Assembly: GCA_030765065.1 (NCBI GenBank)
Contig: CM060990.1
Coordinates: 215,055,290 to 215,119,289 of the forward strand
Length of the DNA: 64,000 bases
Reading direction: 5' to 3'
Origin: Deroplatys truncata
Taxonomy: Eukaryota; Arthropoda; Insecta; Mantodea; Mantidae
In this document: piece by piece, positions 6,011 through 56,541 of the stretch
How the letters are laid out: the number at the start of each line of letters is the position of its first letter
How positions within the stretch are numbered: the first letter of the stretch is position 1
The notes under the pieces: model-generated
Databases searched by the model: none
What the model was told of the DNA's origin: nothing
The model's input: only the letters and a program-made list of their open reading frames with translations
Made by a program: the position numbers and the translations under genes

Positions 6011-7790
6011 GGGAGATCCGTGTGTCTCACCCATATGCTACTACTACCGTATGATTCGAAACCACGAATATGAACTACTCGCTTGAGGAGGAAATCAGGA
6101 CGGGAGAAGGACTTTACAGGTTCCTACACTTTATAAGACATGCCAGGAAAGGTGCTAGTATGGCCAGTGCGGTCTTAAATAATCACGTAGTGCCCCACAC
6201 TCTGTAAGAATATATCAGTAATTATCGCTAGGCCCAAGAAAAGGTCACAAACAGGTTTACACATAAAATCCTTACCTTGAGTGAAGGATGATGCGGTCGG
6301 ATGGGTGGCGATTAGCACTGATTTTAAATGTTTTAGGCCACGTGGAGGTTCAAGAAAACGACCAATGTGGCTTCTTCCAGCAACTGGGTAGAAGTCCGAC
6401 CACGAGTTTCAGAACTGGGGTTTTCTAAAGCAAATCCTGGTTAGCTACGCCAAGCGCCACTACCTAGATGAACATCCTTCCTGCGTGTCAGCTAAACGCT
6501 GGTCAATGCCTTAAGATTAACGATTCCTGGCACTGCTACTTCCGAGTTTTAACACTCGGCTTACCATATGGCAGCCTTACGCCCCACGATTTGTATATTA
6601 CATTTAAGGTACTCGAATCATATACTAATAGTACGAAATAACACTAACACCCGATGCACCGTAACAATATACAATTATATTTTTCATACAATACATTGAA
6701 ATGTCAGATTCACTGTAATCAAAACTCGATTTCTTTCGGGATAGTAAACCGAGAAAAACACCTTACATTGTAGAAGCGAAATATTGAAGACAATATATTA
6801 CTCAATTAAACTAGGCTGGTTTAAACAAATCTGAAGCCAATAACACTGCATGAACGATTTAGCACATTAGTAAGAAAAATGCTGAACCTCAAGATAGAGC
6901 TTTAAATACAGACAGAATCTTTTAAGTTAAAGGGAGGTGTTAACGATAATACTTCATTTCCATTTATGTTATGTAAACCAATTAAAAGCCGTAACGATGT
7001 TCTACAACCCGAGTTTAAAATGCAATTTATCAAGCCTGTGGGGTTTATCTTCAATGTGTGTAGACTTGAAATTGCTGATAAACATTAATTGAAGAGTGGT
7101 AAATCACTATCGTTGCCAAGTATAGCACGTCGATATTTCTCAGATTATGTCGCACAATAGATACTTAAATGATGTATGAATACGAAGCATGGAAATGTGA
7201 AATGTGTGCGAGAACAGGGATTTTATATAAAACCGGAGAATGCCTAACGATGGCACCTCTTTCATATTTCTAAAATGAAATGTGATTGGACAGAACGTTT
7301 TTTAGTTTCGGATTGGCTAAACATTGCAATCTTTCTATTCGATAGTATTTCAGAAAACCAGTTTTATTCTTATTAGAAAACCTGTAAAAGCTTGCATGCC
7401 TAAAAGACAGGCACAAGAATGGTTACTTAACAACGTAGAATATTTTCACAGGATATTTAAATTCTAACATGAAAAATACAAGTGTTCGTTCTAGAACTTT
7501 ACTGTCTCCGAGTAGCTGCATAGAATGCTCACAAAAAAACTATTTTTGCTGTAGAAAACTTAAGTACATGTCATTCTCACACATGGAAACTGAGTCAGGC
7601 TATAAATTAGTTTTAATGTGACGCTATTGTGTTTTAAGTTAAATGCATTATTTTCATGTTTTTATGAACGGAAGGAAATAGTGAAGTTGCGTTTTCCAAA
7701 AATATTGCAACAAAGAAGCCTCTTAAAATGCCCTATTTTTAAAGCCTAGCCATGAATGTATACTTTTTTCAGACAAAAGGAGGTAGCACA
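6011..7790. other. AT-rich DNA, nothing recognised
   Basis: About 1.8 kb of low-GC sequence up to the left edge of the palindrome. No open frame with family resemblance, RNA gene, array or transposon end was seen. Confidence 0.5.
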
Positions 7791-7799
7791 TGAGTAGGA

Positions 7800-9140
7800 T
7801 ATATAGGACAGACCTGGGCCACTTTTTTGCGTTTATATGGGAAAGGATAGGGAAAACGGGGGTATATGCGGAGGTTCACGGAGGAAAATGCGTTTATATG
7901 GCGAAGATAGGGACTACGAGGATCGATGCTAGGCTAGATAGAGGTTGAAGGAATGAGGATGTGCTTTATATGAGAGATTCGTGGAATACGAGGAGAAGTG
8001 TTGGACTAGATAGAGGTTGAGATATGGAATATGCATTTATATGGGAAAGATAGGGAAAACGTGAACAGAGGCTAGGATAGACAGATGCTGAAGATTTATC
8101 ACTAAATCGGTTTATTTTTTTAGTATTAATGTTTGTATTGTCCATAATGTTTTTAATTATTAGTCCAAATTTGATTAGAATTTTAATATGAACATATTTA
8201 CAGGAGAGATAGGGGATACGTGGAGAGGTACTAGACTATTCAGGGTTTGAAGGGTAGAGTATGACTTTTTATATGAAGAGACGAGGAAAACGAGGGTATA
8301 TGCTAGGTTGAGAGAACCTTCAAGGAGGAAACAATGCGTTTATATGGGAGAGATAGGGAAAACGAGGAGAGTTCTGAGGTAAGGCAGGGACTGAAGGAGG
8401 GAGAGATATGCTTTATACGACAGAGATAGGGCATGCGAGGGGAGGTGCTAGTGCAGACAGAGGTTAAGGAGTATGGTATACGTTTATATGAGGAATATAT
8501 GGAAAACGTGAACAGAGGCTAGGATAGACAGGTGCTGAAGCAGGGGGAATATGAACATATTTACAGGAGAGATAGGGGATACGTGGAGAGGTACTAGACT
8601 ATTCAGGGTTTGAAGGGTAGAGTATGACTTTTTATATGAAGAGACGAGGAAAACGAGGGTATATGCGACAGTTCAAGGAGGAAAATGCGTTTATAGGGGA
8701 GAGATAGGGAATACGAGGGCTGATGCTAGGCTAGTCAGATGCTAAAGGAGGGAGGGATACGCTTTATACGAGAGAGATAGGGAATACAAGGAAAGATGTT
8801 ATACTAAACAGGACTTGAAGGGTAGAATATGGTGTTTTATATGAGCGAGATAGTGAACCGAGGAGAAGTGCTAGGCTAGACAGGAAGGTCTGAATGACAG
8901 AGTATACGTTTATATGGGAAAAGATAGGGAAAACGAAGGTAGATGCTAGGTTGAGAGAGTCTTCAAGGAGGAAAATGCGTCTTATATGAGAGAGGTAGGG
9001 GAATATGAGGAGAGGTCCTAGTCTAGACGTGTCGAGGAGCAGAGTATACGTTTATAGGGGAGAAATATGGAAAACGGTAGAGATACAAGGATAAGCAGGG
9101 GTTGAAGGAGGAGGAATGTAGGTTTATACGGTAATATAGA
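7800..9140 (-). repeat. Outer subterminal repeat array, left arm
   Basis: About 1.3 kb of degenerate repeats, each built on TTTATATGGGAAAGATAGGG, AAACGAGG, and an AGGCTAGACAGAGGTTGAAGG-like word, spaced about 60-90 bp. A longer segment of about 115 bp that starts GAACATATTTACAGGAGAG occurs twice (8187 and 8549). The mirror array is at 23620-24960. Subterminal repeats of this kind are common transposase- or replication-protein binding regions, but no function is shown here. Confidence 0.8.
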
Positions 9141-9334
9141 GAGTAATTAAATTATAAAACATTTCTCATCCAACGTTACAACACTTTTATATACTTTTTC
9201 TAAACCTTACAAACTTTATATATGTTAAACTAGGGCGCGAGGCGGCGAGGGACAAACTGAATATCGGTTTACAGTGAAGTATACGTCCTAACCTATGCTC
9301 ACCTTGTATGTTCTACATCTTCTCATTGTCTATT

Positions 9335-9535
9335 CATTCCTAACAGACGTAACCAACAAACGTAACCACGTAACAAGACGTAACATAACGGTACGACAAG
9401 ACGTCATACTAAGCAACATAAGCACGTAACCACGCAACATCACGTGACATCTCGTAACCAGAAACGTTACACGACGTAACAACACGTAGCAACTATGTAA
9501 CCAAGTAACAAAACGTAAGAACAACACGTAACCAA
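9335..9535. repeat. ACGTAAC-rich minisatellite, left arm
   Basis: Short, irregular runs of ACGTAAC/CGTAACAAG at 10-20-bp spacing over about 200 bp, mirrored at 23225-23426. The open frames across it simply translate the repeat. Confidence 0.7.
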
Positions 9536-9985
9536 TTCATTGCTAAGGCGATCTAAACTAATTCATCCTTCATAACTTAGACAATAAGTACGAGAACCTA
9601 GCCTAGATTAACCCGGCCAATCCTAAACGTTCCTCTCATCATCCTTTCTAGTCAGGCATCGACTAACCTAATCTGGCTAACCAAAGATAACCTCAACTTT
9701 CTTTTAGGGAAATTGCAATGTTTTATTCAGGTTTTATTATTCGAGAGTTTTAATTGAAAAGTTTACGCCAACATACCTTTATTTTAGTTCCTTGTAGATG
9801 TCTCTCCCCTTTTATCTAGGCTTGAGACTAGCACTAGGATTACTCCTAATGGCAGGGTTACCACCTTCCCTTCCATCTTCTTCTTTCTTCATCAGGCGTC
9901 AGCTATCTGCATATACAGCACACAGATAACCTTCTTTTAAGATTGTAGACTCACGAGAAACTCTTTATCTTTAACTTACATTCTT

Positions 9986-12900
9986 TTAAGCACTGTTTGT
10001 AATGGCGTAATGTCCATATGCATATGTCGTTATCCCATCCTCAGCAATAATTCTTTTATCATCAAACGGAGTCAATGCAATTTTATTCACTTGCACTGTA
10101 GCAAGAGCATGCTTTCGTGATAGGATCAGATTCATAGGTGTTCTGATGATTTCACAGGTTTTAAGACAGTCTGTATAGCTGTCAAACGAAATATGGTGCT
10201 TAATGGCGCTACGTTTTATACCTTTAATCTTTTTTATCATTGACCCTTGAATGTCTAAGGCATACATCTTAGGACGTAGTCCAACAAAGCGTAGGATGAT
10301 TTTGCTATTAGCCTCATCTTTAAATTTTCCCAATACCTTCTTGTTCTGGGTAGAGTAACATATATGGTTGACAGGGTAATCAGCTGTATCGAGATGCTCA
10401 AGAAAACGTAGCTTGTCCTGGTACACATCTTCAGTTGTAACACGATGAATGAACGAATCAGTGTCCATATACATAAGCTTCAGGTTTTCAGCTCCATAAT
10501 AAGGCAACAAAACGTCGTAATGTCTTGGAGATGTCCAACACACTCATACCAATGTATATAGGCTTGTTGAATACAATCTGACGAGAGGCCATATGTACAG
10601 CAGCTAGATTATCAGCATATATCGTCCTGTCGATAAACGTAGGCTTGGCGATCAGCTTCTCTAGAGTTTTTTCATTGGTCACCAGTCGTATATCCATACG
10701 GTTACGCAGGTTCTCCATAGTTTTTCCAAACATAGCGTTGTTAAAGAGCTTGTAGAGATCCTTCTCGAAATCATTTGCAGCTTGTTGTCGTAACCTGTTG
10801 TTAAATTCCACATACGGTTTTAACCATCGAGACTGTCGGAATTGTAGCACACGATGGATTTTTGTTAACCGTAGCCCATGACTAAGAGCTTGCTTCAAAG
10901 CCATGTAATGTACTACATACTTCTTTCGAGGTCCAAGATGAGGTATCAGTTTCTTTGTAGATGATTCCAGTGGTTTCATACACTCTGGCAGGAAAGGTAG
11001 ATCGTTGTGTAGATCGTGAAGTTCTGCAGGATACTCGATGTCGACTTCTAATATGTAGCCGTAAGGATCATCTTCTTGTAGCGTTTCTAAGCTGATTTCT
11101 TCAGGCGACACCCACTGAAATCCACCATAAGGGAGAGCGCGACACATTGCCCACCCATATTGGTTATTAGCGTCGCCATATGTGATAAATTGGGTTGGTC
11201 TCGACGGATCAAACTTCTCCATATATGTGTTATTAGCCTCTGCATACCGATGGGAAACTTGACATAAACCTCCTCTTATACCAGATTCCACCATGAGTAA
11301 TTGATCATAATCCTGTAACAGTTCCAGCTTAATTCCAGTGTACAGTAACATAGCGTCCCATGTAAGACCTGGAGAGGTAAAATAATGTGCAGGATCAACT
11401 TTGTGTGTTTTGAGGGTTTGCTCTCTGAACGTCTCAAAGACATCAGCTAGGAGAAGTACATCCGAAGTTAAGTAGAGATCGCTGTACTCTCCCAGGTTTC
11501 TCACATTAAACAGCTCCCATACATTTTTAGCATGATCGTAGTCAGCATCACTAATTTCTTCTTCATTTAATCTATTGTAGAAGGAGTCCTTAGGAGGTAA
11601 GCAGGTTTCGTTCAGGGCATCCCATGATGTAACAAAATCATATGGAAATACACCCTTACGGGTCATCAACTTCAATTTGTCTTCTCCAAAGTACTTTAGC
11701 GTTTCAGGATACGAGGTTAGATTTTTTACCAACTTATCCAAGCTTGTACTGAGGAATCGGAAGCTATCCACAAATCGAAGCTTTATATCTCCTACATACT
11801 TGGTGAATGAGATATAGCTTTCTTCGGAGTTAGGAATTACCTCCACACGTTCACTTGTGCAACCCAGCTCCTTAACAATGAAATGAGAGTCATATCCGCT
11901 AAGGTTATGCATGAAGACTGGTACATATTTAGGTGTTTTACAGGCTAAATTACATTCATTATGAAGACTTCCACGATATTCACCGCTGATGTGATCATGG
12001 TCGCGTACTTTATAGTTCTCTTCTGTAAAGGGTTTTCCACACAAGTAGCATGCTGAAGAAGACTCAAAATCCAACTGCTCTTGATCCGTAAGTTTCAGAG
12101 GCTTAGCAGATTTGTATATGTCCTCAATCATTTTTGCAAGAGATGTCAGGTACAGCATAAACTTCTGAGCAGCATCAGCACCACGATACACATAGGGTTG
12201 CTTAGGAAGACCAGTTTCGAGATGTTCAACACAAGATGTAGGCTTCACGTAAACACAGAAGCTCATTGGTGTGTGCTCTTGATAAGGGATTGTATAGGAA
12301 GTTTCAGGATTGGGTATACACGTATGGCATGGAGTGAGAATACTCTCAAAATCAGCATAGATGACATAAGGTACTTTCAGCATCCTCTCAACATTTTTAA
12401 ACCGTACAATTGCTTTCTCCTTTGTAGGCATAACTACCCTCGCAACACCATGTTGGTTACAGATTGATGTATGTTCCTGCAGTTTTTCCTGTCCACTTAG
12501 TCCATATCGATTATCAAAATGTGTAAAGCAGCGCTTGCAGGTATATATCACTCCGTCATGCTTAGTTTTCTGGCGTCGAACGAGCTTCTCAAAATTCTTT
12601 ATATACACGTAGTGATGTTTTCCACTACTGTCATTCAATAGTAGGAGGTCGCGATGTTCAGGTAGTTCAATGTCAACAACCTTTATCGGATACACTTCAT
12701 GCTTCTCATCCAACCCGAAAACGTTAATAGACATCTTGTTAAGCTTCTCAAATTTAGGTATTTGAGAAAGTGGAGTAGGGTAAGAAACACAGCTGAAGTC
12801 GTACTTATCTTGAAGTTTCTTATATTTGCTGACGCGTTGAGGCTTGGTGCTCACGAATTTGGCCAATACAGAGTACATGAAACATAGCTCATCAGTTAAG

Positions 12901-13622
12901 TTCTGGATGTTAATGCAGGCTTTTCTTGCTTCAACAGAGGGAGGTAGGGGTATGTAGCTACTTCCTCGCAACGGGTTGTACTTGTTAATACGAAGGCGTA
13001 CCCCTTCCACAGTAAGCAAGGCCCAGCTGCTACCCTTAAGCTGAGACTCATCCATTTCAGTCACCAATTTCTTGAATTTCACTTCCAGCATAGAGTCCAG
13101 ATCAGTTTCTAGGAAAACAGCTTGATTTCTGGTTTTAAATGTCTTGTCACAGGTTTCACCAATACTGTTAACAAATCGACACTCAGCCAGCAGATTAATT
13201 TTCAAACTCTTGTGAATACCAAGCTCTTTATACACAGCCTGGATTATCCGCTGTTTTGCTTCATGCAGGTACATATTCAGGTCCTTAGTCGATTCACATC
13301 GTATAAAATACGATTTCAAGCGTCCATGGAATGAAGTTTCATATTCTTTCATGTCACACTCCTCCATTGCAGATAACAACTCTTGCTTTGACGGTTCTAA
13401 TCTACGTTTCTTCTCAGGTCTGTTTATTTCACACGCATCTTCGTGTCGACGACCCTTATAACTGTCTTTGAAGGCTACGTTACAATATTTACACTTGAAG
13501 AGTTTTTTACAACGTAGCTCATGTCGTCTTTTATCATATCCACGGAGGAACTTCTTACAGCATTTACCACAAGAATATCCAGTAGCGCTTGGAATAATAT
13601 CCTTATACGCTGAGTTATTCAT
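9986..13622 (-). pseudogene. Protein-primed family B DNA polymerase fossil, copy 1
   Basis: Polymerase gene of the DNA_pol_B_2 type carried by Polintons, adintoviruses and linear plasmids; such enzymes copy linear DNA from a terminal protein primer. Visible parts in order: two N-terminal Cys/His fingers (residues about 18-65), another finger near 365-395, exonuclease motif YADFES (about 425), an RDHDHISGEYRG box typical of this polymerase group (about 540), FMHNLSGYD (about 570, Exo II), motif A GDANNQYG (about 815), motif B NNAMFGKTMEN (about 963), and motif C YMDTDS near the C-terminal end. Total size of about 1,200 residues fits the family. The gene looks broken, about once, and both copies share the damage, so it predates the duplication. 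Upstream lie two TATA-bearing modules. Confidence 0.85.
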
Positions 13623-13729
13623 CTTTATTCTTGATGTAATAACGTATTAATCACTGATCAATGAAATGTAGACCTTTTCACCTTGATACCACTTTAGAAA
13701 GCTGATTATTCTTGGAGAGAACACGATGT

Positions 13730-14100
13730 TAACACCTCAGAAATGATCAACAGAATGAATTTCAATGCCCTAGATCACCGTATTTATAGAGGAAGCACGA
13801 ACCTTTATGCCTCAATTATATATCGTATTAACCCTTCTTCAAGGAAATGTACTCTTATTCACATTGATAACACTTTAGATTATTTTCTGAGAGAACAGCG
13901 ATGTTAACACCTCAGAGATGATCAACAGAATGAATTTCAATACTCAAGTTCGCTCTATTTATAGAGAAAGCACGAACCTTTTAATCAATTATATCCTGAT
14001 TATTAATACTAAAAACGGTGAAGAAGCGTGTAAGCTCTTATATATTTCAATTCGTGTTACACTGATGTTCGAGCGTCTCCGTATAGCTTCGTATGTTTAG
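13730..14100 (-). promoter_or_regulatory. Duplicated TATA-bearing module upstream of polymerase, copy 1
   Basis: Two direct copies, 175 bp apart, of a segment with TATAAATA (minus strand at 13781-13788 and 13956-13963), followed downstream by TTGAAATTCATTCTGTTGAT and TGAGGTGTTAACATCG. The nearer TATA is about 160 bp upstream of the polymerase start. The arrangement looks like a promoter duplicated in tandem, with the second copy available as an alternative start. Promoter function is inferred from position and motif only. Confidence 0.5.
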
Positions 14101-14234
14101 AGAGAAAGTGTAAAGTATTGTGAAGATGTTATGTATTGTTCGGCTATAATCGTACAGATTCGGAGAGCTTGACTGGTGAAGGTGATGAACGATCCGTCAA
14201 CCGAGCAGGAGGCAAGCAGTCCCTTCGCGCAACG

Positions 14235-14989
14235 AAACCTAGATGCAAAAGAAAGAAAATCGTGTTAGATGAGAAACCACCCAGACATTCGCCTGCAGAC
14301 CATGGAAAACCATGAAAAAATATGTCAGAGTGAGCGTCCAACGGAACTCGAACCAGGGACTCTAAAAAGCACACGTGAAAGGTACAGATTATATAGAATG
14401 AAAGGAAATCGCTGACGATGAGAAACCACTCCAGCATTCGCCTGCAGACCAGGGAAAACCTAAAAAATATGATGTCAGAGTGATCGACCAACAGGGAAAT
14501 CAAACAAAAGACCTTAGAAACATATAGGTTAAGATGTAAATCAAAATAAAAAGGTAATAAAATCGTGCTAGATGAGAAACCACCCAGACATTCGCCTACA
14601 GACCAGGCAAAACCATGAAAAAATATGTCAGAGTAAACAACCAACGACAATCGAACGAGGGAAACCATCAGATTACTCTAGAAGCAAAAAAAAAGTTGCA
14701 AAAGAAAGAAAATCGTGTTAGATGAGAAACCACCCAGACATTCGCCTGCAGACCATGGAAAACCATGAAAAAATATGTCAGAGTGAGCGTCCAACGGAAC
14801 TCGAACCAGGGACTCTAAAAAGCACACGTGAAAGGTACAGATTATATAGAATGAAAGGAAATCGCTGACGATGAGAAACCACTCCAGCATTCGCCTGCAG
14901 ACCAGGGAAAACCCTAAAAAATATGATGTCAGAGTGATCAACCAACAGGGAAATCAAACAAAAGACCTTAGAAACATATAGTTTAAGAT
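14235..14989 (-). repeat. Inner higher-order repeat array, left arm
   Basis: Mirror of the larger array at 17533-18525. Three monomer types of about 150 bp follow one another. Each has the core (minus strand) CTCTGACAT...CATGGTTTTCC.TGGTCTGCAGGCGAATG..TGG.TGGTTTCTCATC and a variable half. The C-type monomer contains CCTGGTTCGAGTTCC, which fits a tRNA B box, so the monomers look SINE-derived. The array stops at the inner edge of the arm. Confidence 0.82.
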
Positions 14990-16497
14990 AGATCAAAGAA
15001 CCTTATCAGATGGCGGCAAATCCTTTGAGGGCCAGAGTCGCTATTATATTTCTACTGTCTGGTGGGGGAAGAGGGGAAGTGAGGGGAAATACATACGTTT
15101 ATAGAGATCTACATTTGATATTCTTTATCAAAATATTTGTATTATTATCGATTATATCCTTGGGTTGTAGCTCGTTATTGATTGTCGTTCCAAGTAGGGT
15201 TGGAGGACTAGGATTGAATCCCGTGACATGAATACAAATTTCATCCCCCGAATAAAATAAAATGGTGAACGTGCGATATTACATTTATATCAGTAACTAA
15301 TTTCTTTGTTATGTATATTTGGACATCTGTCATCCTGACGAATATTATATCTCTTAGATGAATGTATATTTAAATGGTATAGTGAGCGTAAAAAACTAGA
15401 TTACGTAAGACGCTGGCGCGAGCTGCGGTGGTATAGCATGCTGCTACGAATAGGACCGGACCTTACGGCATGCAGGACCGTACTGAGGGCTGGACTCTCA
15501 GCGAGTCGTGATGCCGGTCTTTCTCCCTTCAGGTGCCACCCCTCAGCCGCCTTTCGCAAGGCTTCTCCTCCCCGCCAGGTGCTCGCCTCCGCCCGAGGCC
15601 TACATGAAAGGCAAGCTACTAAAAGATGACTGCGGCCATGTTAGCTTCCCGACACGTGAAGGCAGGCGTTATATTTGATAATGTTCGCTCTGGTTTTAAA
15701 AGAAATTTAAAAATAGATTGCAAGATATCTTTAACAAAGGAAGTCTTAAAAATGAAAATAAACAAACTTTATACTAAATACAAATCGGTCTTGATTATAA
15801 TTATACACAGTCAGAAGCAGATCGTTGTTTTTCGTCTAAAAATAGAATACATTTATTAAAACATTTCTATTCTACAAGCTACACATCTGAGTAAATCTGA
15901 AATCTAATTGCTCGTAATTACGGGCAAATGTAGCGGTTTTAAAAATAAACGAACATTAAAACGTATAAAAATGCGTATTGTACACTGATTTTTTGACGAA
16001 TGATGGACATGAGAGAAATTATTGAAAAAATCACTAAATAATAGAGTATATACATGAATTTAATTAAATAAGGGTGGAAAAACTTCTACAATTTTTGATA
16101 TGCTAGCAATTCTCGTAATCGAGTATTTAAATAATGACAAAGATACAATCGAATGCTTAAGTACAGAATCTATACAGTATACGTTTAATTGAAACGTAAT
16201 CATTAATATTCTTCATGTAGAATTATATTAATTATCAGGAAAACATTTGTTGTGGAAAGCTTAAAACATAGCTATCCCATTTTAAAGCATAATAGCCTTC
16301 CTAATGTATAAATGTCCAAGAAGCTGTACAGGCGACAGCCTGTCGAGAGAGGTATTTCCGAGACTCCGCCAGTCAGGTAAACATTCTTCAAAGGGTGTAC
16401 AAACTATTTTAGCAATGGTGTCCAACTGAATAATTCCTCGAATTTTCTCGAAGATTTCCTGTGAATGAAAAAAAAGCTTTTAAACAAATATGGCTCG

Positions 16498-16504
16498 ATC
16501 TCTC

Positions 16505-16541
<37 letters not shown>

Positions 16542-16542
16542 G
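16498..16542. repeat. (TC)n microsatellite
   Basis: About 45 bp of TC dinucleotide with one CCC interruption. Confidence 0.95.
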
Positions 16543-16760
16543 CTGGAATAATCAAACAATATCTCTCGAATGGAGAGTCGTTTAAAAACGATTTCGTCCT
16601 ATGTTTACTAAGAGAATAAGCCAATCTTTTTGTAAAATAATACTTGGCGATAATTGTAATAGTCACGAATGCTTACTGAGACAATCTATACACCACGCGT
16701 GAGAATAGGTACAAGGGAATGGAAGAAACCGAGTCATTTGTCAGATGTTTAAAACAACAG

Positions 16761-17085
16761 TGTTATATAGTTCAGCGGTTTCGTTTCCCGCTCTCGTACT
16801 GAGGGTCCGGCTTTCGAATCCAGGCTCTGGCGGTCCTATCCACACCTTCACCACCGACTTGCTCGTGCGAAGTGTCACCAAGGCCTAACGTGGTTCGGTG
16901 TCCATGGTAAAAGCTGTAGGTCCTCTCGTTCCACCGCCATCCTCATCATCACCCTCCCTCGGACGCAACGCTGGGTGCCTCCACCTCAGAAATGGGTTCA
17001 ATCATAGCTTAGTAGAATGAGATATCCCCTAAAGGTCATAGGCCATAATATTGGGAGCGTTATAAACGACTACAACAATCTTATA
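16761..17085 (+). mobile_element. tRNA-headed SINE
   Basis: The head contains an A-box-like TAGTTCAGCGGTTT (near 16768) and, about 45 bp on, CTTTCGAATCC (16811-16821), a good fit to the tRNA B box GGTTCGANTCC. The body of about 230 bp, with GACGCAACGCTGGGTGCCTCC and CCACCTCAGAAATGGGTTC, ends with GGGAGCGTTATAAACGACTAC, a tail of the kind seen in arthropod SINEs. Possible short duplication TTATATA on both sides, too AT-rich to be decisive. Pol III transcription would start at the head. Confidence 0.72.
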
Positions 17086-17532
17086 TATAGGAAATGGCCA
17101 ATGCCACAGAAAAAAGACGTTATTTCAAATGAATTGTGTTTTTAAAAACGTTCTATACCATTGTGTACTACGTTATACGAAATTTATATATAAAATATGT
17201 GGTATTTTAATCAAAATGTGAAACTTGGTGATAAATTGGAAACGGCCCCTCCCTTTAAACGTCCTTCAGTTTCCTTTTTCACCAAAAAGATTCACACACG
17301 AAAAGAATAACTGGTTCGAAGGCCAGACTACACATGCTCTCCCACGGGAGCAGAGCATCATTTGGAAATATTCCATTTGCTTTTATTGGTAGGTAATTAA
17401 TTTAAAAAATGCAGAGAACCGCTCATCGACGGCATTTGTATTAGTTTCGTTACACAGACTTTTAAATTTATCATACGTATTCCCGGATCGTGAAGGATCG
17501 AATTTGGTTTTATTAACGAGGTGTCCCTTTGA

Positions 17533-18525
17533 TTTTTTTCATGGTTTCCCCTGGTCTGCAGGCGAATGCCTGAGTGGGTTCTCATCTAACACGATTTTCT
17601 TTCTTTTGCAACTTTTTTTTTGCTTCTAGAGTAATCTGATGGTATCCCTCGTTCGATTGTCGTTGGTTGTTTACTCTGACATATTTTTCATGGTTTTGCC
17701 TGGTCTGTAGGCGAATGTTTGGGTGGTTTCTCATCTAGCACGATTTTATTACCTTTTTATTTTGATTTACATCTTAAACTATATGTTTCTAAGGTCTTTT
17801 GTTTGATTTCCCTGTTGGTTGATCACTCTGACATCATATTTTTTAGGGTTTTCCCTGGTCTGCAGGCGAATGCTGGAGTGGTTTCTCATCGTCAGCGATT
17901 TCCTTTCATTCTATATAATCTGTACCTTTCACGTGTGCTTTTTAGAGTCCCTGGTTCGAGTTCCGTTGGACGCTCACTCTGACATATTTTTTCATGGTTT
18001 TCCATGGTCTGCAGGCGAATGTCTGGGTGGTTTCTCATCTAACACGATTTTCTTTCTTTTGCAACTTTTTTTTTGCTTCTAGAGTAATCTGATGGTTTCC
18101 CTCGTTCGATTGTCGTTGGTTGTTTACTCTGACATATTTTTTCATGGTTTTGCCTGGTCTGTAGGCGAATGTCTGGGTGGTTTCTCATCTAGCACGATTT
18201 TATTACCTTTTTATTTTGATTTACATCTTAACCTATATGTTTCTAAGGTCTTTTGTTTGATTTCCCTGTTGGTCGATCACTCTGACATCATATTTTTTAG
18301 GTTTTCCCTGGTCTGCAGGCGAATGCTGGAGTGGTTTCTCATCGTCAGCGATTTCCTTTCATTCTATATAATCTGTACCTTTCACGTGTGCTTTTTAGAG
18401 TCCCTGGTTCGAGTTCCGTTGGACGCTCACTCTGACATATTTTTTCATGGTTTTCCATGGTCTGCAGGCGAATGTCTGGGTGGTTTCTCATCTAACACGA
18501 TTTTCTTTCTTTTGCATCTAGGTTT
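17533..18525 (+). repeat. Inner higher-order repeat array, right arm and beyond
   Basis: Monomers in the order a-b-c-a-b-c-a. The c-type core GGTTTTCCCTGGTCTGCAGG recurs at about 17847 and 18299, a period of about 453 bp, and the a-type recurs at the same step. Monomers are about 150 bp. The array runs some 240 bp further toward the centre than the mirrored arm (which starts at 17771), so the palindrome edge falls inside the array. The B-box-like CCTGGTTCGAGTTCC in type c suggests descent from a SINE. Confidence 0.85.
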
Positions 18526-18659
18526 CGTTGCGCGAAGGGACTGCTTGCCTCCTGCTCGGTTGACGGATCGTTCATCACCTTCACCAGTCAAGCTCTCCGA
18601 ATCTGTACGATTATAGCCGAACAATACATAACATCTTCACAATACTTTACACTTTCTCT

Positions 18660-19030
18660 CTAAACATACGAAGCTATACGGAGACGCTCGAACATCAGTG
18701 TAACACGAATTGAAATATATAAGAGCTTACACGCTTCATCACCGTTTTTAGTATTAATAATCAGGATATAATTGATTAAAAGGTTCGTGCTTTCTCTATA
18801 AATAGAGCGAACTTGAGTATTGAAATTCATTCTGTTGATCATCTCTGAGGTGTTAACATCGCTGTTCTCTCAGAAAATAATCTAAAGTGTTATCAATGTG
18901 AATAAGAGTACATTTCCTTGAAGAAGGGTTAATACGATATATAATTGAGGCATAAAGGTTCGTGCTTCCTCTATAAATACGGTGATCTAGGGCATTGAAA
19001 TTCATTCTGTTGATCATTTCTGAGGTGTTA
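18660..19030 (+). promoter_or_regulatory. Duplicated TATA-bearing module upstream of polymerase, copy 2
   Basis: TATAAATA at 18797-18804 and again at 18972-18979, each followed by ATTGAAATTCATTCTGTTGAT and then GAGGTGTTAACATCG. The polymerase start is at 19138. Mirror of the left-arm modules. Confidence 0.5.
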
Positions 19031-19137
19031 ACATCGTGTTCTCTCCAAGAATAATCAGCTTTCTAAAGTGGTATCAAGGTGAAAAGGTCTACATTTCATT
19101 GATCAGTGATTAATACGTTATTACATCAAGAATAAAG

Positions 19138-22100
19138 ATGAATAACTCAGCGTATAAGGATATTATTCCAAGCGCTACTGGATATTCTTGTGGTAAATGC
19201 TGTAAGAAGTTCCTCCGTGGATATGATAAAAGACGACATGAGCTACGTTGTAAAAAACTCTTCAAGTGTAAATATTGTAACGTAGCCTTCAAAGACAGTT
19301 ATAAGGGTCGTCGACACGAAGATGCGTGTGAAATAAACAGACCTGAGAAGAAACGTAGATTAGAACCGTCAAAGCAAGAGTTGTTATCTGCAATGGAGGA
19401 GTGTGACATGAAAGAATATGAAACTTCATTCCATGGACGCTTGAAATCGTATTTTATACGATGTGAATCGACTAAGGACCTGAATATGTACCTGCATGAA
19501 GCAAAACAGCGGATAATCCAGGCTGTGTATAAAGAGCTTGGTATTCACAAGAGTTTGAAAATTAATCTGCTGGCTGAGTGTCGATTTGTTAACAGTATTG
19601 GTGAAACCTGTGACAAGACATTTAAAACCAGAAATCAAGCTGTTTTCCTAGAAACTGATCTGGACTCTATGCTGGAAGTGAAATTCAAGAAATTGGTGAC
19701 TGAAATGGATGAGTCTCAGCTTAAGGGTAGCAGCTGGGCCTTGCTTACTGTGGAAGGGGTACGCCTTCGTATTAACAAGTACAACCCGTTGCGAGGAAGT
19801 AGCTACATACCCCTACCTCCCTCTGTTGAAGCAAGAAAAGCCTGCATTAACATCCAGAACTTAACTGATGAGCTATGTTTCATGTACTCTGTATTGGCCA
19901 AATTCGTGAGCACCAAGCCTCAACGCGTCAACAAATATAAGAAACTTCAAGATAAGTACGACTTCAGCTGTGTTTCTTACCCTACTCCACTTTCTCAAAT
20001 ACCTAAATTTGAGAAGCTTAACAAGATGTCTATTAACGTTTTCGGGTTGGATGAGAAGCATGAAGTGTATCCGATAAAGGTTGTTGACATTGAACTACCT
20101 GAACATCGCGACCTCCTACTATTGAATGACAGTAGTGGAAAACATCACTACGTGTATATAAAGAATTTTGAGAAGCTCGTTCGACGCCAGAAAACTAAGC
20201 ATGACGGAGTGATATATACCTGCAAGCGCTGCTTTACACATTTTGATAATCGATATGGACTAAGTGGACAGGAAAAACTGCAGGAACATACATCAATCTG
20301 TAACCAACATGGTGTTGCGAGGGTAGTTATGCCTACAAAGGAGAAAGCAATTGTACGGTTTAAAAATGTTGAGAGGATGCTGAAAGTACCTTATGTCATC
20401 TATGCTGATTTTGAGAGTATTCTCACTCCATGCCATACGTGTATACCCAATCCTGAAACTTCCTATACAATCCCTTATCAAGAGCACACACCAATGAGCT
20501 TCTGTGTTTACGTGAAGCCTACATCTTGTGTTGAACATCTCGAAACTGGTCTTCCTAAGCAACCCTATGTGTATCGTGGTGCTGATGCTGCTCAGAAGTT
20601 TATGCTGTACCTGACATCTCTTGCAAAAATGATTGAGGACATATACAAATCTGCTAAGCCTCTGAAACTTACGGATCAAGAGCAGTTGGATTTTGAGTCT
20701 TCTTCAGCATGCTACTTGTGTGGAAAACCCTTTACAGAAGAGAACTATAAAGTACGCGACCATGATCACATCAGCGGTGAATATCGTGGAAGTCTTCATA
20801 ATGAATGTAATTTAGCCTGTAAAACACCTAAATATGTACCAGTCTTCATGCATAACCTTAGCGGATATGACTCTCATTTCATTGTTAAGGAGCTGGGTTG
20901 CACAAGTGAACGTGTGGAGGTAATTCCTAACTCCGAAGAAAGCTATATCTCATTCACCAAGTATGTAGGAGATATAAAGCTTCGATTTGTGGATAGCTTC
21001 CGATTCCTCAGTACAAGCTTGGATAAGTTGGTAAAAAATCTAACCTCGTATCCTGAAACGCTAAAGTACTTTGGAGAAGACAAATTGAAGTTGATGACCC
21101 GTAAGGGTGTATTTCCATATGATTTTGTTACATCATGGGATGCCCTGAACGAAACCTGCTTACCTCCTAAGGACTCCTTCTACAATAGATTAAATGAAGA
21201 AGAAATTAGTGATGCTGACTACGATCATGCTAAAAATGTATGGGAGCTGTTTAATGTGAGAAACCTGGGAGAGTACAGCGATCTCTACTTAACTTCGGAT
21301 GTACTTCTCCTAGCTGATGTCTTTGAGACGTTCAGAGAGCAAACCCTCAAAACACACAAAGTTGATCCTGCACATTATTTTACCTCTCCAGGTCTTACAT
21401 GGGACGCTATGTTACTGTACACTGGAATTAAGCTGGAACTGTTACAGGATTATGATCAATTACTCATGGTGGAATCTGGTATAAGAGGAGGTTTATGTCA
21501 AGTTTCCCATCGGTATGCAGAGGCTAATAACACATATATGGAGAAGTTTGATCCGTCGAGACCAACCCAATTTATCACATATGGCGACGCTAATAACCAA
21601 TATGGGTGGGCAATGTGTCGCGCTCTCCCTTATGGTGGATTTCAGTGGGTGTCGCCTGAAGAAATCAGCTTAGAAACGCTACAAGAAGATGATCCTTACG
21701 GCTACATATTAGAAGTCGACATCGAGTATCCTGCAGAACTTCACGATCTACACAACGATCTACCTTTCCTGCCAGAGTGTATGAAACCACTGGAATCATC
21801 TACAAAGAAACTGATACCTCATCTTGGACCTCGAAAGAAGTATGTAGTACATTACATGGCTTTGAAGCAAGCTCTTAGTCATGGGCTACGGTTAACAAAA
21901 ATCCATCGTGTGCTACAATTCCGACAGTCTCGATGGTTAAAACCGTATGTGGAATTTAACAACAGGTTACGACAACAAGCTGCAAATGATTTCGAGAAGG
22001 ATCTCTACAAGCTCTTTAACAACGCTATGTTTGGAAAAACTATGGAGAACCTGCGTAACCGTATGGATATACGACTGGTGACCAATGAAAAAACTCTAGA

Positions 22101-22774
22101 GAAGCTGATCGCCAAGCCTACGTTTATCGACAGGACGATATATGCTGATAATCTAGCTGCTGTACATATGGCCTCTCGTCAGATTGTATTCAACAAGCCT
22201 ATATACATTGGTATGAGTGTGTTGGACATCTCCAAGACATTACGACGTTTTGTTGCCTTATTATGGAGCTGAAAACCTGAAGCTTATGTATATGGACACT
22301 GATTCGTTCATTCATCGTGTTACAACTGAAGATGTGTACCAGGACAAGCTACGTTTTCTTGAGCATCTCGATACAGCTGATTACCCTGTCAACCATATAT
22401 GTTACTCTACCCAGAACAAGAAGGTATTGGGAAAATTTAAAGATGAGGCTAATAGCAAAATCATCCTACGCTTTGTTGGACTACGTCCTAAGATGTATGC
22501 CTTAGATATTCAAGGGTCAATGATAAAAAAGATTAAAGGTATAAAACGTAGCGCCATTAAGCACCATATTTCGTTTGACAGCTATACAGACTGTCTTAAA
22601 ACCTGTGAAATCATCAGAACACCTATGAATCTGATCCTATCACGAAAGCATGCTCTTGCTACAGTGCAAGTGAATAAAATTGCATTGACTCCGTTTGATG
22701 ATAAAAGAATTATTGCTGAGGATGGGATAACGACATATGCATATGGACATTACGCCATTACAAACAGTGCTTAA
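19138..22774 (+). pseudogene. Protein-primed family B DNA polymerase fossil, copy 2
   Basis: Second copy of the polymerase described at 9986-13622, with the same zinc fingers, exonuclease, RDHDH box and polymerase motifs A, B and C. The start MNNSAYKD is chosen because it is the first ATG after the TATA modules and the frame is open from there; an upstream in-frame start was not seen. The copy carries the same damage (about one break) as its mirror twin. No terminal protein, integrase or capsid gene accompanies it. After the gene, 22775-23220 holds no other frame of note. Confidence 0.85.
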
Positions 22775-23224
22775 AAGAATGTAAGTTAAAGATAAAGAGT
22801 TTCTCGTGAGTCTACAATCTTAAAAGAAGGTTATCTGTGTGCTGTATATGCAGATAGCTGACGCCTGATGAAGAAAGAAGAAGATGGAAGGGAAGGTGGT
22901 AACCCTGCCATTAGGAGTAATCCTAGTGCTAGTCTCAAGCCTAGATAAAAGGGGAGAGACATCTACAAGGAACTAAAATAAAGGTATGTTGGCGTAAACT
23001 TTTCAATTAAAACTCTCGAATAATAAAACCTGAATAAAACATTGCAATTTCCCTAAAAGAAAGTTGAGGTTATCTTTGGTTAGCCAGATTAGGTTAGTCG
23101 ATGCCTGACTAGAAAGGATGATGAGAGGAACGTTTAGGATTGGCCGGGTTAATCTAGGCTAGGTTCTCGTACTTATTGTCTAAGTTATGAAGGATGAATT
23201 AGTTTAGATCGCCTTAGCAATGAA

Positions 23225-23426
23225 TTGGTTACGTGTTGTTCTTACGTTTTGTTACTTGGTTACATAGTTGCTACGTGTTGTTACGTCGTGTAACGTTTCT
23301 GGTTACGAGATGTCACGTGATGTTGCGTGGTTACGTGCTTATGTTGCTTAGTATGACGTCTTGTCGTACCGTTATGTTACGTCTTGTTACGTGGTTACGT
23401 TTGTTGGTTACGTCTGTTAGGAATGA
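23225..23426. repeat. ACGTAAC-rich minisatellite, right arm
   Basis: Mirror of 9335-9535; GTTACGT words at 10-20-bp spacing. Confidence 0.7.
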
Positions 23427-23619
23427 ATAGACAATGAGAAGATGTAGAACATACAAGGTGAGCATAGGTTAGGACGTATACTTCACTGTAAACCGATATT
23501 CAGTTTGTCCCTCGCCGCCTCGCGCCCTAGTTTAACATATATAAAGTTTGTAAGGTTTAGAAAAAGTATATAAAAGTGTTGTAACGTTGGATGAGAAATG
23601 TTTTATAATTTAATTACTC

Positions 23620-24960
23620 TCTATATTACCGTATAAACCTACATTCCTCCTCCTTCAACCCCTGCTTATCCTTGTATCTCTACCGTTTTCCATATTTCTC
23701 CCCTATAAACGTATACTCTGCTCCTCGACACGTCTAGACTAGGACCTCTCCTCATATTCCCCTACCTCTCTCATATAAGACGCATTTTCCTCCTTGAAGA
23801 CTCTCTCAACCTAGCATCTACCTTCGTTTTCCCTATCTTTTCCCATATAAACGTATACTCTGTCATTCAGACCTTCCTGTCTAGCCTAGCACTTCTCCTC
23901 GGTTCACTATCTCGCTCATATAAAACACCATATTCTACCCTTCAAGTCCTGTTTAGTATAACATCTTTCCTTGTATTCCCTATCTCTCTCGTATAAAGCG
24001 TATCCCTCCCTCCTTTAGCATCTGACTAGCCTAGCATCAGCCCTCGTATTCCCTATCTCTCCCCTATAAACGCATTTTCCTCCTTGAACTGTCGCATATA
24101 CCCTCGTTTTCCTCGTCTCTTCATATAAAAAGTCATACTCTACCCTTCAAACCCTGAATAGTCTAGTACCTCTCCACGTATCCCCTATCTCTCCTGTAAA
24201 TATGTTCATATTCCCCCTGCTTCAGCACCTGTCTATCCTAGCCTCTGTTCACGTTTTCCATATATTCCTCATATAAACGTATACCATACTCCTTAACCTC
24301 TGTCTGCACTAGCACCTCCCCTCGCATGCCCTATCTCTGTCGTATAAAGCATATCTCTCCCTCCTTCAGTCCCTGCCTTACCTCAGAACTCTCCTCGTTT
24401 TCCCTATCTCTCCCATATAAACGCATTGTTTCCTCCTTGAAGGTTCTCTCAACCTAGCATATACCCTCGTTTTCCTCGTCTCTTCATATAAAAAGTCATA
24501 CTCTACCCTTCAAACCCTGAATAGTCTAGTACCTCTCCACGTATCCCCTATCTCTCCTGTAAATATGTTCATATTAAAATTCTAATCAAATTTGGACTAA
24601 TAATTAAAAACATTATGGACAATACAAACATTAATACTAAAAAAATAAACCGATTTAGTGATAAATCTTCAGCATCTGTCTATCCTAGCCTCTGTTCACG
24701 TTTTCCCTATCTTTCCCATATAAATGCATATTCCATATCTCAACCTCTATCTAGTCCAACACTTCTCCTCGTATTCCACGAATCTCTCATATAAAGCACA
24801 TCCTCATTCCTTCAACCTCTATCTAGCCTAGCATCGATCCTCGTAGTCCCTATCTTCGCCATATAAACGCATTTTCCTCCGTGAACCTCCGCATATACCC
24901 CCGTTTTCCCTATCCTTTCCCATATAAACGCAAAAAAGTGGCCCAGGTCTGTCCTATATA
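23620..24960 (+). repeat. Outer subterminal repeat array, right arm
   Basis: Mirror of 7800-9140. Units contain CCCTATCTCTCCCATATAAACG and a CTTCAACCTCTGTCTAGCCTAGCA-like word, spaced about 60-90 bp; the doubled 115-bp segment lies near 24100 and 24460. Confidence 0.8.
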
Positions 24961-24969
24961 TCCTACTCA

Positions 24970-26102
24970 CATGTTTCTGTGAACTGATCACCATCGTATT
25001 TTTCGTAACTTAAGCCATATAAGATATTTTTCAGACGTTTGTTTATAAAAGGCTTTTGGTACAAAGAAAGCCTGCAGCCGCAAAATTTAAATCTTCATTG
25101 TATACTTGGAGATTGAACATTCTTATGTTTACAATTGGGCTTTGGTAAAAGAAGAGATCCAAGTGTTCTCTTAAAGTATTTTTTCTGAAAACGTCACCCA
25201 TATTTTTTCAGAGTAATTCTAACTATAAGCCAGCGAAAAGTTAATGAACAAAGGGAAGAAGTACAAAATAGGCTCCGGTCGGTCGTTTTCGTGAACTTTT
25301 CTACTTTCTAAGGAACTGTTAAGAGATTTCTTAATAATGCCCTTTTAGAAGTTTTTGTTTTTACATCAAGGGTGGCTTAAAATAGAGTGTCAGAGAAAAT
25401 GTATCTATACGCGTGCTTTTGTTCTTAACAACAGTAATTCCTGTTGAAAGTCCAGTGTGAGAGGGAAATGTAGTAATTTCTCTGAATTATCAAAAAAAAA
25501 GATGGCTTTAAAGAAACCGGGGTTTAAGTTTTGAAAACTTCCATTGCTTAAAAGGAAACTGAATGCAACTCATATAGCGTTTTTCTCTGAACTGCGAGAA
25601 TTATGGACTTTAAAGAAATTTTGACTTAATTTTCTAAAAGTGGTGTTTGTTAAAATAAACAGAGTGGGATTCTTTCCGTTTTCAATGTGGGCGTGCGGTC
25701 ATTATTTAAGTTCTGTAAAGACTTACAAGAAAAGTTACACAGAGTTCGAGAAGACTTTACGACAAATGATTTTCCCTTCATTTAAGAATGCTGCATTTAG
25801 ACATTTTATTTTTAAAACAAGTAACGCAACGCTTTGTAAGATTGCGTTTTACCCTTTTAAAAATATGGTGCATTGTGTTACGTGCTTTGTCCGGTGAACC
25901 GAAGGGGCTATTGGACGGCAAGGAAGAGTCATTGCATATGCTGCTACAGATGAGGGCTTTGTACCCTTCTCACTTTCTCTACTACGTACATTCTAGGTGG
26001 AGAGGTATTGCATATCAACCAAAATTTGGATACCAATCTTTGACCGAAAATACATTTTTCGGAGCCTCCTAAATACAGAAAAAGGCATTTTTAGAGAAGG
26101 GT

Positions 26103-29367: not shown

Positions 29368-31035
29368 TAGGGGCCGGATTTTAATGACGAGCCATATTTT
29401 TCCTGTGAATTTTGGGGTGAATTTGACAAGTTATGCATGAATTCATGTATTGTAGTGTATAAAAATGTTTTTTATTGTGCATATTAAGTCATATTTTTAG
29501 CAATAGGTCATATTTCGGCCACCTTGCCATAATAGGTCACATTTCTTCCAACGTTGGCCAAAAATCATATATTTGTCGCATCCTTAAGGACACAAGAATA
29601 AAAACATGAAAATGTAGCTCACATGGCAATGTTTCAGGTGATATTGTCACAAATAAACACAAGAATTACTACAAGCTTTATTGATAAATAAAGCTTTGTA
29701 GTAAAGAAGCATTGTAACACAATAGTCGGTTCGTTGACGTAAGACATTGCTGCGTGGGGTCGACAAAACGCTCTCAAAGCCAACAAAGGCGGCTTGTGAC
29801 GTAATAAACATCGCACACGTGGTCATACTATTCAGTTTTAATGCAAACTCAGTTTGGTTCAACATACCGAAAGAAAAGTGCTCCAACAGCATGAAGTTGC
29901 GAGGTTTTGTTCCGGACTCTGGAGAGAAGTTCTTCAGCACTGATGCGGAAATTATTTTGAAAATACGTGAAGTTAAATTTAGTGCAGAAAAACGTTTTAA
30001 TATGCAGCAACACTGTGATACCGCTAAACACAGTAGCTGTGTGAAGAGAAGTGCTGAAAATTACAGTAGACAAACGCTGTTAGTTGAGCAAACAGATCCA
30101 TCTTCAACCGTGCAATCATTCTTCAAGGACTTGGTGACATGATGGTGTCTTGTAACATCCCAGTTGGAGAAGTTGAGGTATCCACGTTTCAGACAGTTCT
30201 TGGAGAAGTACACAGCACATCCAGTTCCAGATGAATCTACAGTGAGAAAAAACTGTTTATCCGTGTGCTACGAGGAGGTGCTCCACCAAATACGAATTAG
30301 TGTTGCTGACAAAAAGGGCTGGGTGTCCATAGATGAAACCGCCGATGCGGGTGGGCGTTACGTTGCAAATGTTGTTGGTGGTTTTATAAAAGTTGACGGG
30401 CATGGAGAAATGTTCCTCATAACATGTGAAGCTCTCTCTCTCGAGAGTAAACAACTCGATAAATGCCATTATATTTGACAACTCTATGAAGCTACTGTGG
30501 CCGGATGGTGTGAATAGGGACAACATGTTGCTACTAGTAACAGATGGTGCTTTATAAATGGCTAAAGCAGCCAAAGGGCTTCATATTCTCCTTCCCACTA
30601 TGGTGTACGTCACTTGCCTTGCACATGCACTACACAGAGTTGCAGAAAAGGTGCGATCAAATTACCCTGACGTGGACAAATTAATTTCCTGTGGCAAGAA
30701 AATCTGTGTGAAAACTCCGCAGAAATTCAAGGAACAAGCACCTTCACTGCCCCTCCCCCCTCAGGCTGGTGTTACACGATGGGGTTCTTGGCTAATACTA
30801 CTGAGTATTACTGCACCAACTACACCAAAATAAAGACAATATTTTGTGAGCTTGATAACGATGAATCAAGTGCTACCAAAAGTGTGAAAGAGGTCTTTAC
30901 AGATACCTTGTCTGGAAATTTGGCATACATCAACGCCAACATTTCAGCAGTATCAAAAACCATCACAGACTGGAAGCTGCTGGTACTCAACTGTGTGAGG
31001 CCCTGGATATTGTACATGTTCAGAGTCATTTGGGT
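29368..31035 (+). mobile_element. hAT-like DNA transposon remnant
   Basis: Begins at about 29368 with TAGGGGCCGGATTTTA, which fits a hAT terminal repeat (C/TAGGGG...). A 0.5-kb leader carries repeated words around CATATTT/GGTCA, then the transposase. The 3' part and the right terminal repeat are missing, because LINE copy B begins at 31036 inside the coding region. This is a plain DNA transposon of the CGGBP1/DUF659-related kind. Confidence 0.75.
29891..31030 (+). pseudogene. hAT-like transposase (CGGBP1/DUF659-related), decayed
   Basis: The likely start is ATG 29891 (MKLRGFVPDSGEKFFSTD). The N-terminal BED-like finger has kept its histidines (QQHCDTAKH), but the two cysteines expected just before are gone (IILKIREV where relatives have a C-x2-C). 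Then come KLRYPRFRQFLEKYTAHPVP, the catalytic-region motif VSIDETAD-GGRYVANVV, and TCLAHALHRVAEKVRSNYPD, followed by LPLPPQ-GVTRWGSWL, which are characteristic of this transposase group. Frame changes fall near 30133-30170 and 30470-30480, another lies near 30795, and there is an in-frame TAA near 30556. The C-terminal dimerisation region is missing. It can be followed for about 380 codons and is dead. Confidence 0.78.
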
Positions 31036-32561
31036 CGATGATGATGATGATGCTGATGATGAGGTGGGGTTAAAGGGCGCTCAACAGCTAAGGTTATTAG
31101 CGCCCTTATAATGTAGAAAATATAAAAGTTTAAAACCAAAAATTAAAATATCACACACACCCGCTTGGTCGAAAACAGTAAAACCAACAGACCAAATTCT
31201 AAAACCTACCACACTAAAATTATGGTCAAAAAGAGTAAAACAATGTGTCAAGAGCTGTAGGACGCATGGGACATGAGCGCCATATGTCCACTGGGGTGTG
31301 GAGTCCCCACTAAAACAGACACTATAAAATTACAAAGCTAAAGGACGCTCAGCGCATCAAATGCGCCGATTAAAATCACTGTCAACAATAAAACGTAAAA
31401 CACATTCTACAGCACGCGCGTCGTCTGCCAAAACGTTGGATATGCCAACAGGCAGACCCACACGAACGCGCAATGGAGCTAAAACCTGACACTCTTCCAA
31501 AATGTGACGCACCGTTAAGGGCACATTACACTGCTACAGAGTGGAGCGGGGTCACCACTAAGCAGATACCTATGACTAAAAAGACAATGTCCAATCCGTA
31601 AACGAGCTACAATTACCTCTTCCCGACGACCCAAACGAGAAGAGGTACCCCAGACTAACGGGAGAGGCTTAACCTCCCGCAACTTGCTCCCCCGGAGGGC
31701 CGTCCACTCATCCCTCGAAAGCGAAAGGATGCGGCCACGTAAAATAGCAAACAAATCTGTGGAGGGAACAACAGAGGTAACATATCTGGGTAATAAAATC
31801 GCCGATTTGGCAGCGACGTCGGCAGACTCATTACCTGAGATGCCCACATGACCTGGAATCCACATGAAGGAGACGCTGATGCCAGAGATACCAAGGAGTG
31901 GAGCAGGTCATGTATGCGCTGTACGAGTGGGTGGTAATGGTACAGCGCGTTAATACTCTGAAGGGCACTCAGAGAGTCCGTACAAATAACACAGTGCCAT
32001 AAGTCGTGCCGTTGAATGTATAAAACAGATTGATAAATACTAAAAAGTTCGGCAGTAAGAATTGAACATTGCCCTGGTAAACGAAACGTAAAACTACATT
32101 GACCAAAAACAGAGGCACACCCGACTACAGCATCAGTCTTAGATCCATCGGTAAAGATAAAATGAAAGTCCCCGAATTGCGCCTTTACTTCTAAAAAAAG
32201 CCGATCTAAAGACTGAAGAAGGGGTTTCAATCTTCGGCATCGACGTTAGTCCAAGGTGACAGTGGGCCTAAGCGCGCAACCATGGAGGAAAAAGCGTTTC
32301 CCCCTGGGAAGGACCGGCGTTGGCGTAACGTCCAAATGCCGAAGGAGCTGTCGAAATCGTACCCCTGGAGGGAGCAATGCAGAGGAGCTAATTAAATGTT
32401 GCCGATCAAGCGACTCCGCGAAAAATAAGTCGAAGGACGGGTGGTCAGGCAACCTTGAGTGACGACAGCCATAGCTGCACAAAAGCATCTCACACCTGGA
32501 AGACAACGCAGGCTCTGCAGCTTCAGCGTAAAGACTGGGTACGGGGCTAGATGGAAAGGCT
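31036..32561 (-). mobile_element. LINE copy B (5'-truncated 3' end)
   Basis: Starts on the left with a TGATGATGA-type tail, the 3' end of a minus-strand LINE, followed by the conserved AGGGCGCTCAACAGCTAAGG 3' UTR word. It reaches through the RNase H into the region after the RT and stops where the tail of copy C begins. It interrupts the hAT element. The truncated left-to-right order B then C, both minus, is a head-to-tail pair. Confidence 0.9.
31357..32561 (-). pseudogene. LINE ORF2 C-terminal part (RNase H), copy B
   Basis: The stop is at 31357-31359. The RNase H domain shows FTDGSKTD, AELFSIYQSVLY, CTDSLSAL and GNESADVAAK, which carry the catalytic D-E-D-D residues, and the family motif WIPGHVGISG; it degrades the RNA strand after reverse transcription. 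Frameshifts fall within and after the domain (about 31650 and 32240). The C-terminal zinc motif C-x2-C-x7-H-x4-C is disrupted near 31530. Confidence 0.85.
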
Positions 32562-32562
32562 C

Positions 32563-32595
<33 letters not shown>

Positions 32596-39467: not shown

Positions 39468-39488
39468 TAAGAAAAAGGGATAAACTGT

Positions 39489-56520: not shown

Positions 56521-56541
56521 TAAGAAAAAGGGATAAACTGT

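Follow-up and report, generated by a model that had tools for sequence, protein, structure and literature searches.

The stretch of DNA analysed here (the window) comprises 64,000 nucleotides of contig CM060990.1 from the mantid Deroplatys truncata. It holds a near-perfect palindrome, which an earlier note on this DNA had described and which self-BLAST bears out, with arms at 7791-14989 and 17771-24969 and a coordinate sum of 32760. That note had also called for a self-alignment to establish how alike the arms are. They align over 7,199 bp with 3 mismatches and 0 gaps (99.96% identity), a match that exceeds chance by far. Each arm carries one outward-facing DNA polymerase gene, as the note had said, split into two pieces that overlap in different frames, one of 1,044 codons and one of 185, and the layout is identical in both arms. 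The mismatches lie at 10253/22507, 12829/19931 and 14022/18738. One of them exchanges Asn and Ser at residue 265 of the larger piece (piece 1), one is silent and lies within the smaller (piece 2), and the one at 14022/18738 falls outside the polymerase. With only 3 differences in 7.2 kb the inverted duplication must be recent or recently homogenised, so this part of the earlier interpretation is supported.

We believe it very probable that the palindrome is one inserted, non-autonomous derivative of a Maverick/Polinton element whose polymerase end has been duplicated. We reach this conclusion because of its termini, the 6-bp duplication around it, the polymerase in each arm, the identical breaks in the two polymerase copies, and the finding of no other Maverick gene. 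A known class of element explains most of what is strange about the palindrome. Its form is what is new, in that the terminal repeats of this Maverick derivative are 7.2 kb long and include the polymerase. No palindromic Maverick was found in the literature among the titles and abstract openings of the matches listed.

The outer edges carry much of this argument. The arm limits first proposed hold for the 7,199-bp extent of the match but not for the outermost 2 bp (TG) of each arm, which are a chance extension from the target-site duplication. Once these are trimmed on both sides, the termini read 5'-AG...CT-3' and a perfect 6-bp direct duplication, CACATG, stands immediately outside them. Among 10,000 random placements in the window only 4 gave a 6-bp match at the exact offset (4e-4). 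A Maverick/Polinton should have a 6-bp target-site duplication, found here on both sides, and terminal inverted repeats that commonly start with AG. The ends here are AGTAGG//CCTACT, with 5 of 6 letters as in (AGT)2. The available text of a survey of vertebrate Mavericks (PMC8097293) gives 6-bp duplications for intact elements and (AGT)2//(ACT)2 or (AG)3//(CT)3 as their commonest termini. These elements average 16.9 kb there, and their terminal repeats measure 46-1,447 bp (mean 402). By that account the palindrome is like a vertebrate Maverick in its 6-bp duplication, its AG-starting termini and its size (17.2 versus a mean of 16.9 kb).

These edges also bear on two quite different explanations. 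The earlier note likened the palindrome to those of sex chromosomes, which would make it a segmental inverted duplication of host DNA under gene conversion. An arm identity of 99.96% and a non-palindromic spacer fit this idea. However, such a palindrome should hold duplicated host genes and have edges unrelated to transposon ends, whereas here the outer edges coincide with transposon-type termini and a 6-bp target-site duplication, and the arm gene, a Maverick-type polymerase, comes from a mobile-element family. The likeness finds no support, and this origin is scarcely credible to us. The second explanation is an assembly artefact, in which the assembler duplicated a Maverick end by mistake or fused two haplotypes. 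Having only 3 differences in 7.2 kb is what such an error might leave, but each outer edge ends exactly at a terminus, the 6-bp duplication matches on the two sides, and the flanks differ. Nor would a head-to-head join of haplotypes be expected to leave the same 6 bp repeated beside AG/CT termini (chance 4e-4, or 4e-3 over 13 offsets). The three arm differences themselves, and a minisatellite whose length is unequal on the two sides, also argue against it. We regard misassembly as quite unlikely.

The window supplied its own control for the terminal test. It contains 156 inverted BLAST pairs (word 11, E at most 1, overlapping pieces counted apart), and a pair passed if it had AG...CT ends and a 6-bp duplication, with edges free to slide 8 bp. 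Two of the 156 pass, where simple arithmetic puts the chance expectation at about 0.04. One is the palindrome, and the other, 44944-51864, is a second, non-autonomous Maverick-like element. The terminal repeats of this second element are about 0.95 kb long and 95.7-95.9% identical. When its flanks are fused through a single TTGGGC they align without interruption over the junction to six other copies of a long interspersed nuclear element (LINE) in the window, at 79.9-85.0% identity. The second element is thus well supported as an insertion into a LINE. It has no polymerase match, and the one reading frame scanned with Pfam gave no match. A protease-like stretch within it reached E 0.032 when the search was restricted to the element and E 0.30 over the whole window, and we count it as chance. 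The two elements have in common their AG/CT termini, a 6-bp duplication, a skewed subterminal zone and weakly matching minisatellite units; the second element differs in its repeats of about 0.95 kb and in having no polymerase match.

The subterminal zones and minisatellites deserve attention in their own right. GC skew in the subterminal zones of both elements is 0.51-0.57, and the largest value elsewhere, over 181 other windows, is 0.26. The extent of the left subterminal zone of the palindrome may correspond to that of the ancestral terminal inverted repeat. The inner edges of the palindrome fall in tandem repeats. We considered whether this minisatellite is unrelated host DNA and rejected the idea, as a matching array at 46.6-49.3 kb sits inside the second Maverick-like element. 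The units of the two elements resemble each other weakly (best E 1e-7), and to judge from their sequence the minisatellite is more likely carried by Maverick-like elements than part of the host DNA.

Piece 1 of the polymerase matches DNA_pol_B_2 (PF03175) and, less strongly, Endonuclease_7 (PF02945). Piece 2 has no credible Pfam match, and matches the phage family phrog_1907, a DNA polymerase, at E 6.9e-5. Piece 1 holds what we take to be the exonuclease motifs and polymerase motifs A and B, with the endonuclease-VII-like part as an insert, and piece 2 holds DTDS, presumably motif C. The arm gene is therefore predicted to be a Maverick-type family-B DNA polymerase. Searches of solved structures with the polymerase returned nothing credible, and a structure prediction for piece 1 from a two-sequence input had a mean pLDDT (predicted local distance difference test) of 28 and was discarded. 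In the available text on the insect elements Sf Maverick 1 and 2 (PMC5803895), POLB is about 1,160 aa long and has polymerase-B2 and endonuclease-VII domains, the latter weak (E 0.02 and 0.32), so the same pair of domains occurs in a large gene in both cases. That text lists for Sf Maverick 1 one larger open reading frame (ORF) and eight smaller ones on the same strand, a layout that by analogy could fit the outward-facing polymerase of the palindrome. The difference is that the Sf Mavericks are given nine ORFs including integrase, ATPase, protease and capsid, whereas the palindrome has only the polymerase, twice and broken.

The break is informative. A Maverick/Polinton should have an uninterrupted polymerase gene, and here it lies in two overlapping frames, alike in both arms. 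We considered a programmed frameshift or an intron by eye only and disfavour both, since the pieces meet within a few bases when set against an uninterrupted relative, the protein of contig L001 described below. The sequence makes a short loss at this point likelier. Because the break is identical in both copies, it must have travelled with the arm when this was copied, or else have reached the other arm by conversion. As it stands, the element is predicted to be unable to make the polymerase as one chain by ordinary reading.

Relatives were sought with a motif pattern from the window polymerase in the genome_contigs collection (84,980 species). The pattern led to a single contig of 5.8 kb, L001, which is filed under an Ignavibacteria metagenome bin. 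Its protein of 1,144 aa is uninterrupted, is 35% identical to piece 1 over 967 columns, and is the sole intact relative found; its C-terminus aligns to piece 2 at E 4.6e-24. We call it a polymerase because of its likeness to piece 1. One ORF away from it L001 carries an ATPase-like frame of 308 codons, homologous (36.5% identity, E 2.7e-38) to an ATPase-like frame on L011, a contig of the same bin. L011 has a polymerase C-terminus in two frames, followed by its ATPase-like gene and an adenovirus-endoprotease-like gene. A third contig of the bin, L012, encodes an integrase with a chromodomain (rve E 2.4e-15 and Chromo E 1.3e-9, both above cut-off). It is important to realize that rve alone is weak evidence, being present in 6 of 14 control genomes, and that the bin holds six rve places of which one was examined. 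Polinton-type polymerase, ATPase-like, protease-like and integrase genes occur, then, in these three contigs of the bin, which probably holds eukaryotic contamination. In our reading of these sequences the window polymerase belongs to a Maverick/Polinton lineage. A motif pattern had 0 matches in viral_contigs, where the window polymerase, a two-row alignment and the L001 polymerase gave 1, 24 and 14 pattern-matching stretches, none of them confirmed. Animal elements may be scarce in that collection.

What else a Maverick should carry was looked for in the arms and in the spacer between them. The Pfam scan took in every one of the 36 stop-to-stop frames of at least 60 aa listed for the spacer and right arm, one frame being read from its first ATG, and in the left arm, the mirror image, it covered only the polymerase-free frame 14144-14665. 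Two of the 36 are the polymerase pieces. The other 34 have no Pfam match above cut-off, and these include all 12 frames of the spacer (14990-17770). No retroviral-type integrase (rve) appears in any of the 36, and there is no Pfam match above cut-off for a packaging ATPase, a protease or a capsid protein. A tblastn search of the window with 3 L001 proteins and 7 from L011 and L012 found the polymerase only, the next best match having E 0.30; with the L012 integrase the best match (E 1.9) lies outside the element.

These results raise the question of whether the palindrome belongs to a standing family of minimal, polymerase-only replicons in which two polymerase ends are normal, this copy having decayed. 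Two things suit this proposal: piece 1 runs open over 1,044 codons though no other Maverick gene was found, and the palindrome is as long as a complete Maverick. Against it, a single copy was seen, both polymerase copies are broken alike, and viral_contigs, a collection perhaps poor in animal elements, yielded no polymerase relative. We think such a family unlikely.

The 2,781-bp spacer had been described as unrelated DNA. This is correct for a unique centre of about 2.54 kb but not for the final 237 bp (17534-17770), which are the minisatellite of the arms. The centre also contains a tRNA-like stretch that is a candidate short interspersed nuclear element (SINE). The imperfect repeat that flanks it is equalled by 3.8% of random placements, and the stretch has no Rfam match at gathering scores and no tRNA according to ARAGORN. 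The presence of this candidate may mean that the centre predates the likeness of the arms.

Table 1. Coordinates of the palindromic element, its parts, and the second Maverick-like element within the window
Feature	Position	Strand	Size	Remarks
Whole inserted element	7793-24967		17,175 bp	termini AGTAGG//CCTACT
Target-site duplication, left copy	7787-7792			CACATG
Target-site duplication, right copy	24968-24973			CACATG
Left arm (terminal inverted repeat)	7793-14989	+	7.2 kb	self-alignment
Right arm (terminal inverted repeat)	17771-24967	-	7.2 kb	self-alignment
Left subterminal zone	7793-9120			degenerate repeats, GC skew +0.57
Right subterminal zone	23641-24967			mirror of left, GC skew -0.57
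Left-arm polymerase piece 1	10488-13622	-	1,044 aa	mirror of right-arm piece
Left-arm polymerase piece 2	9986-10543	-	185 aa	other frame; mirror of right-arm piece
Right-arm polymerase piece 1	19138-22272	+	1,044 aa	PF03175 E 4.9e-26, PF02945 E 2.4e-5
Right-arm polymerase piece 2	22217-22774	+	185 aa	other frame; phrog_1907 and L001 C-terminus
Left-arm inner minisatellite	14241-14989			150/453-bp periods
Right inner minisatellite	17534-18516			extends 237 bp into spacer
Unique central spacer	14990-17533			no recognisable gene (Pfam scan of frames)
Candidate tRNA-like SINE in spacer	16770-17071 (16754-17087 with flanking repeat)	+		imperfect 14/16 direct repeat
Second Maverick-like element, non-autonomous	44944-51864		6,921 bp	ends AGTAGT//ACTACT, exactly (AGT)2//(ACT)2; duplication TTGGGC
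Skewed subterminal zones of second element	44944-45914 and 50922-51864			GC skew +0.52/-0.51

The surroundings of the second element, 31000-44943 and 51865-64000, are a dense stack of related LINE copies in both orientations, pairs of which are about 80-92% alike. Several copies seem to start directly after a TGA-repeat tail (near 32563-32599, 35588, 60555 and 61545), as if these LINEs insert at one another's ends.

How a Maverick could have come to this form can be told in two ways, which differ in timing. The parent would have been an ordinary Maverick with the polymerase gene beside one end. That end, comprising the terminus, the subterminal repeats, the polymerase and the minisatellite, may have been copied in inverted orientation onto the opposite end, with the switch in copying lying within the minisatellite. 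The integrase, ATPase, protease and capsid genes would have been lost through this copying. If it took place during extrachromosomal replication, the product could then have been inserted by the proteins of an intact relative acting in trans, and formation before insertion does require that such a relative supplied them. We lean towards this order of events because the centre shows no Maverick gene, though we give it slightly less than an even chance.

The copying could also have followed insertion. Here a full Maverick would have inserted, after which repair of a break from one terminal repeat invaded the other, copied the polymerase end and ended in the minisatellite, with ongoing conversion between the arms perhaps keeping them alike. 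Such copying preserves the duplication and the termini, the terminal inverted repeats supply the homology for repair, the position of the inner edges in tandem repeats fits, and the shared frame break would follow from copying or conversion. Yet the centre should then be Maverick interior, and its 12 frames contain no Pfam family above cut-off, nor did the searches with proteins of the three related contigs find anything but polymerase. We hold this course of events to be nearly as likely as copying before insertion.

Linear DNA viruses are able to make snap-back molecules, and the palindrome has the same structure, one end present twice, inverted, around a loop. With somewhat less than even odds, the palindrome may represent a snap-back defective genome from an animal Maverick virus that became inserted and heritable. 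In that case it would have come from putative protein-primed replication and depended on help in trans both to be carried and to be inserted, and its duplicated ends and polymerase hairpin RNA might interfere with the parent. A comparable description is that of asymmetric snap-back genomes with a loop in adeno-associated virus, in the available text of PMC8235507. They are like the palindrome in having one end of a linear genome twice in mirror image with an unpaired central loop, and differ in that this is a parvovirus whose molecules were found in virus particles, whereas the palindrome is an inserted element. The cryptophyte Polinton-like viruses (PMC12220804, text seen in part) are like it in their long repeats, hundreds to thousands of bp within the authors' filter of 100 bp-8 kb, and in their short duplications of about 4-6 bp. 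These are described as algal elements that bear capsid genes, and the portion of that text seen does not mention a polymerase inside the repeats.

Several observations weigh against a Maverick derivative, and the argument should be judged with them in view. The duplication is less exceptional if its position may vary, as 4 of 1,000 random placements pass over 13 symmetric offsets (4e-3). The flanks of the palindrome, joined with one copy of the duplication, match only themselves in the window, where no empty site was seen. The 7.2-kb arms are about 5 times the longest vertebrate Maverick repeat (1,447 bp) in the available text of PMC8097293, which also shows that AG ends are not universal, since swamp-eel Mavericks start with an AC repeat. 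A wasp polintovirus is reported with GTGTGTGT tips in the part of PMC4061559 available. The assignment to a lineage has soft points as well. Up to E 1 the L001 protein matches Endonuclease_7 alone and not PF03175, and the 241 aa scanned from the ATPase-like ORF of L001 match nothing in Pfam. Matches of the L011 ATPase are below the Pfam cut-off (AAA_14 E 1.9e-5, Pox_A32 E 5.6e-4), and its adenovirus-endoprotease-like match is just below it (E 4.1e-4). Without an integrase or capsid gene, insertion in trans has to be assumed. Finally, a spacer with no Maverick gene and a candidate old SINE may count against the proposal, and neither model of timing predicts the SINE.

For those who meet near-perfect palindromes in assemblies the lesson is to check for transposon ends before reading them as sex-chromosome palindromes or as errors. 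Mavericks have been debated as both transposons and viruses. If our account is true, an inserted mirror-image defective genome would point to replication of a viral kind in animal cells, by way of free linear intermediates. The element would also supply double-stranded polymerase RNA for silencing, a proposal that can be tested.

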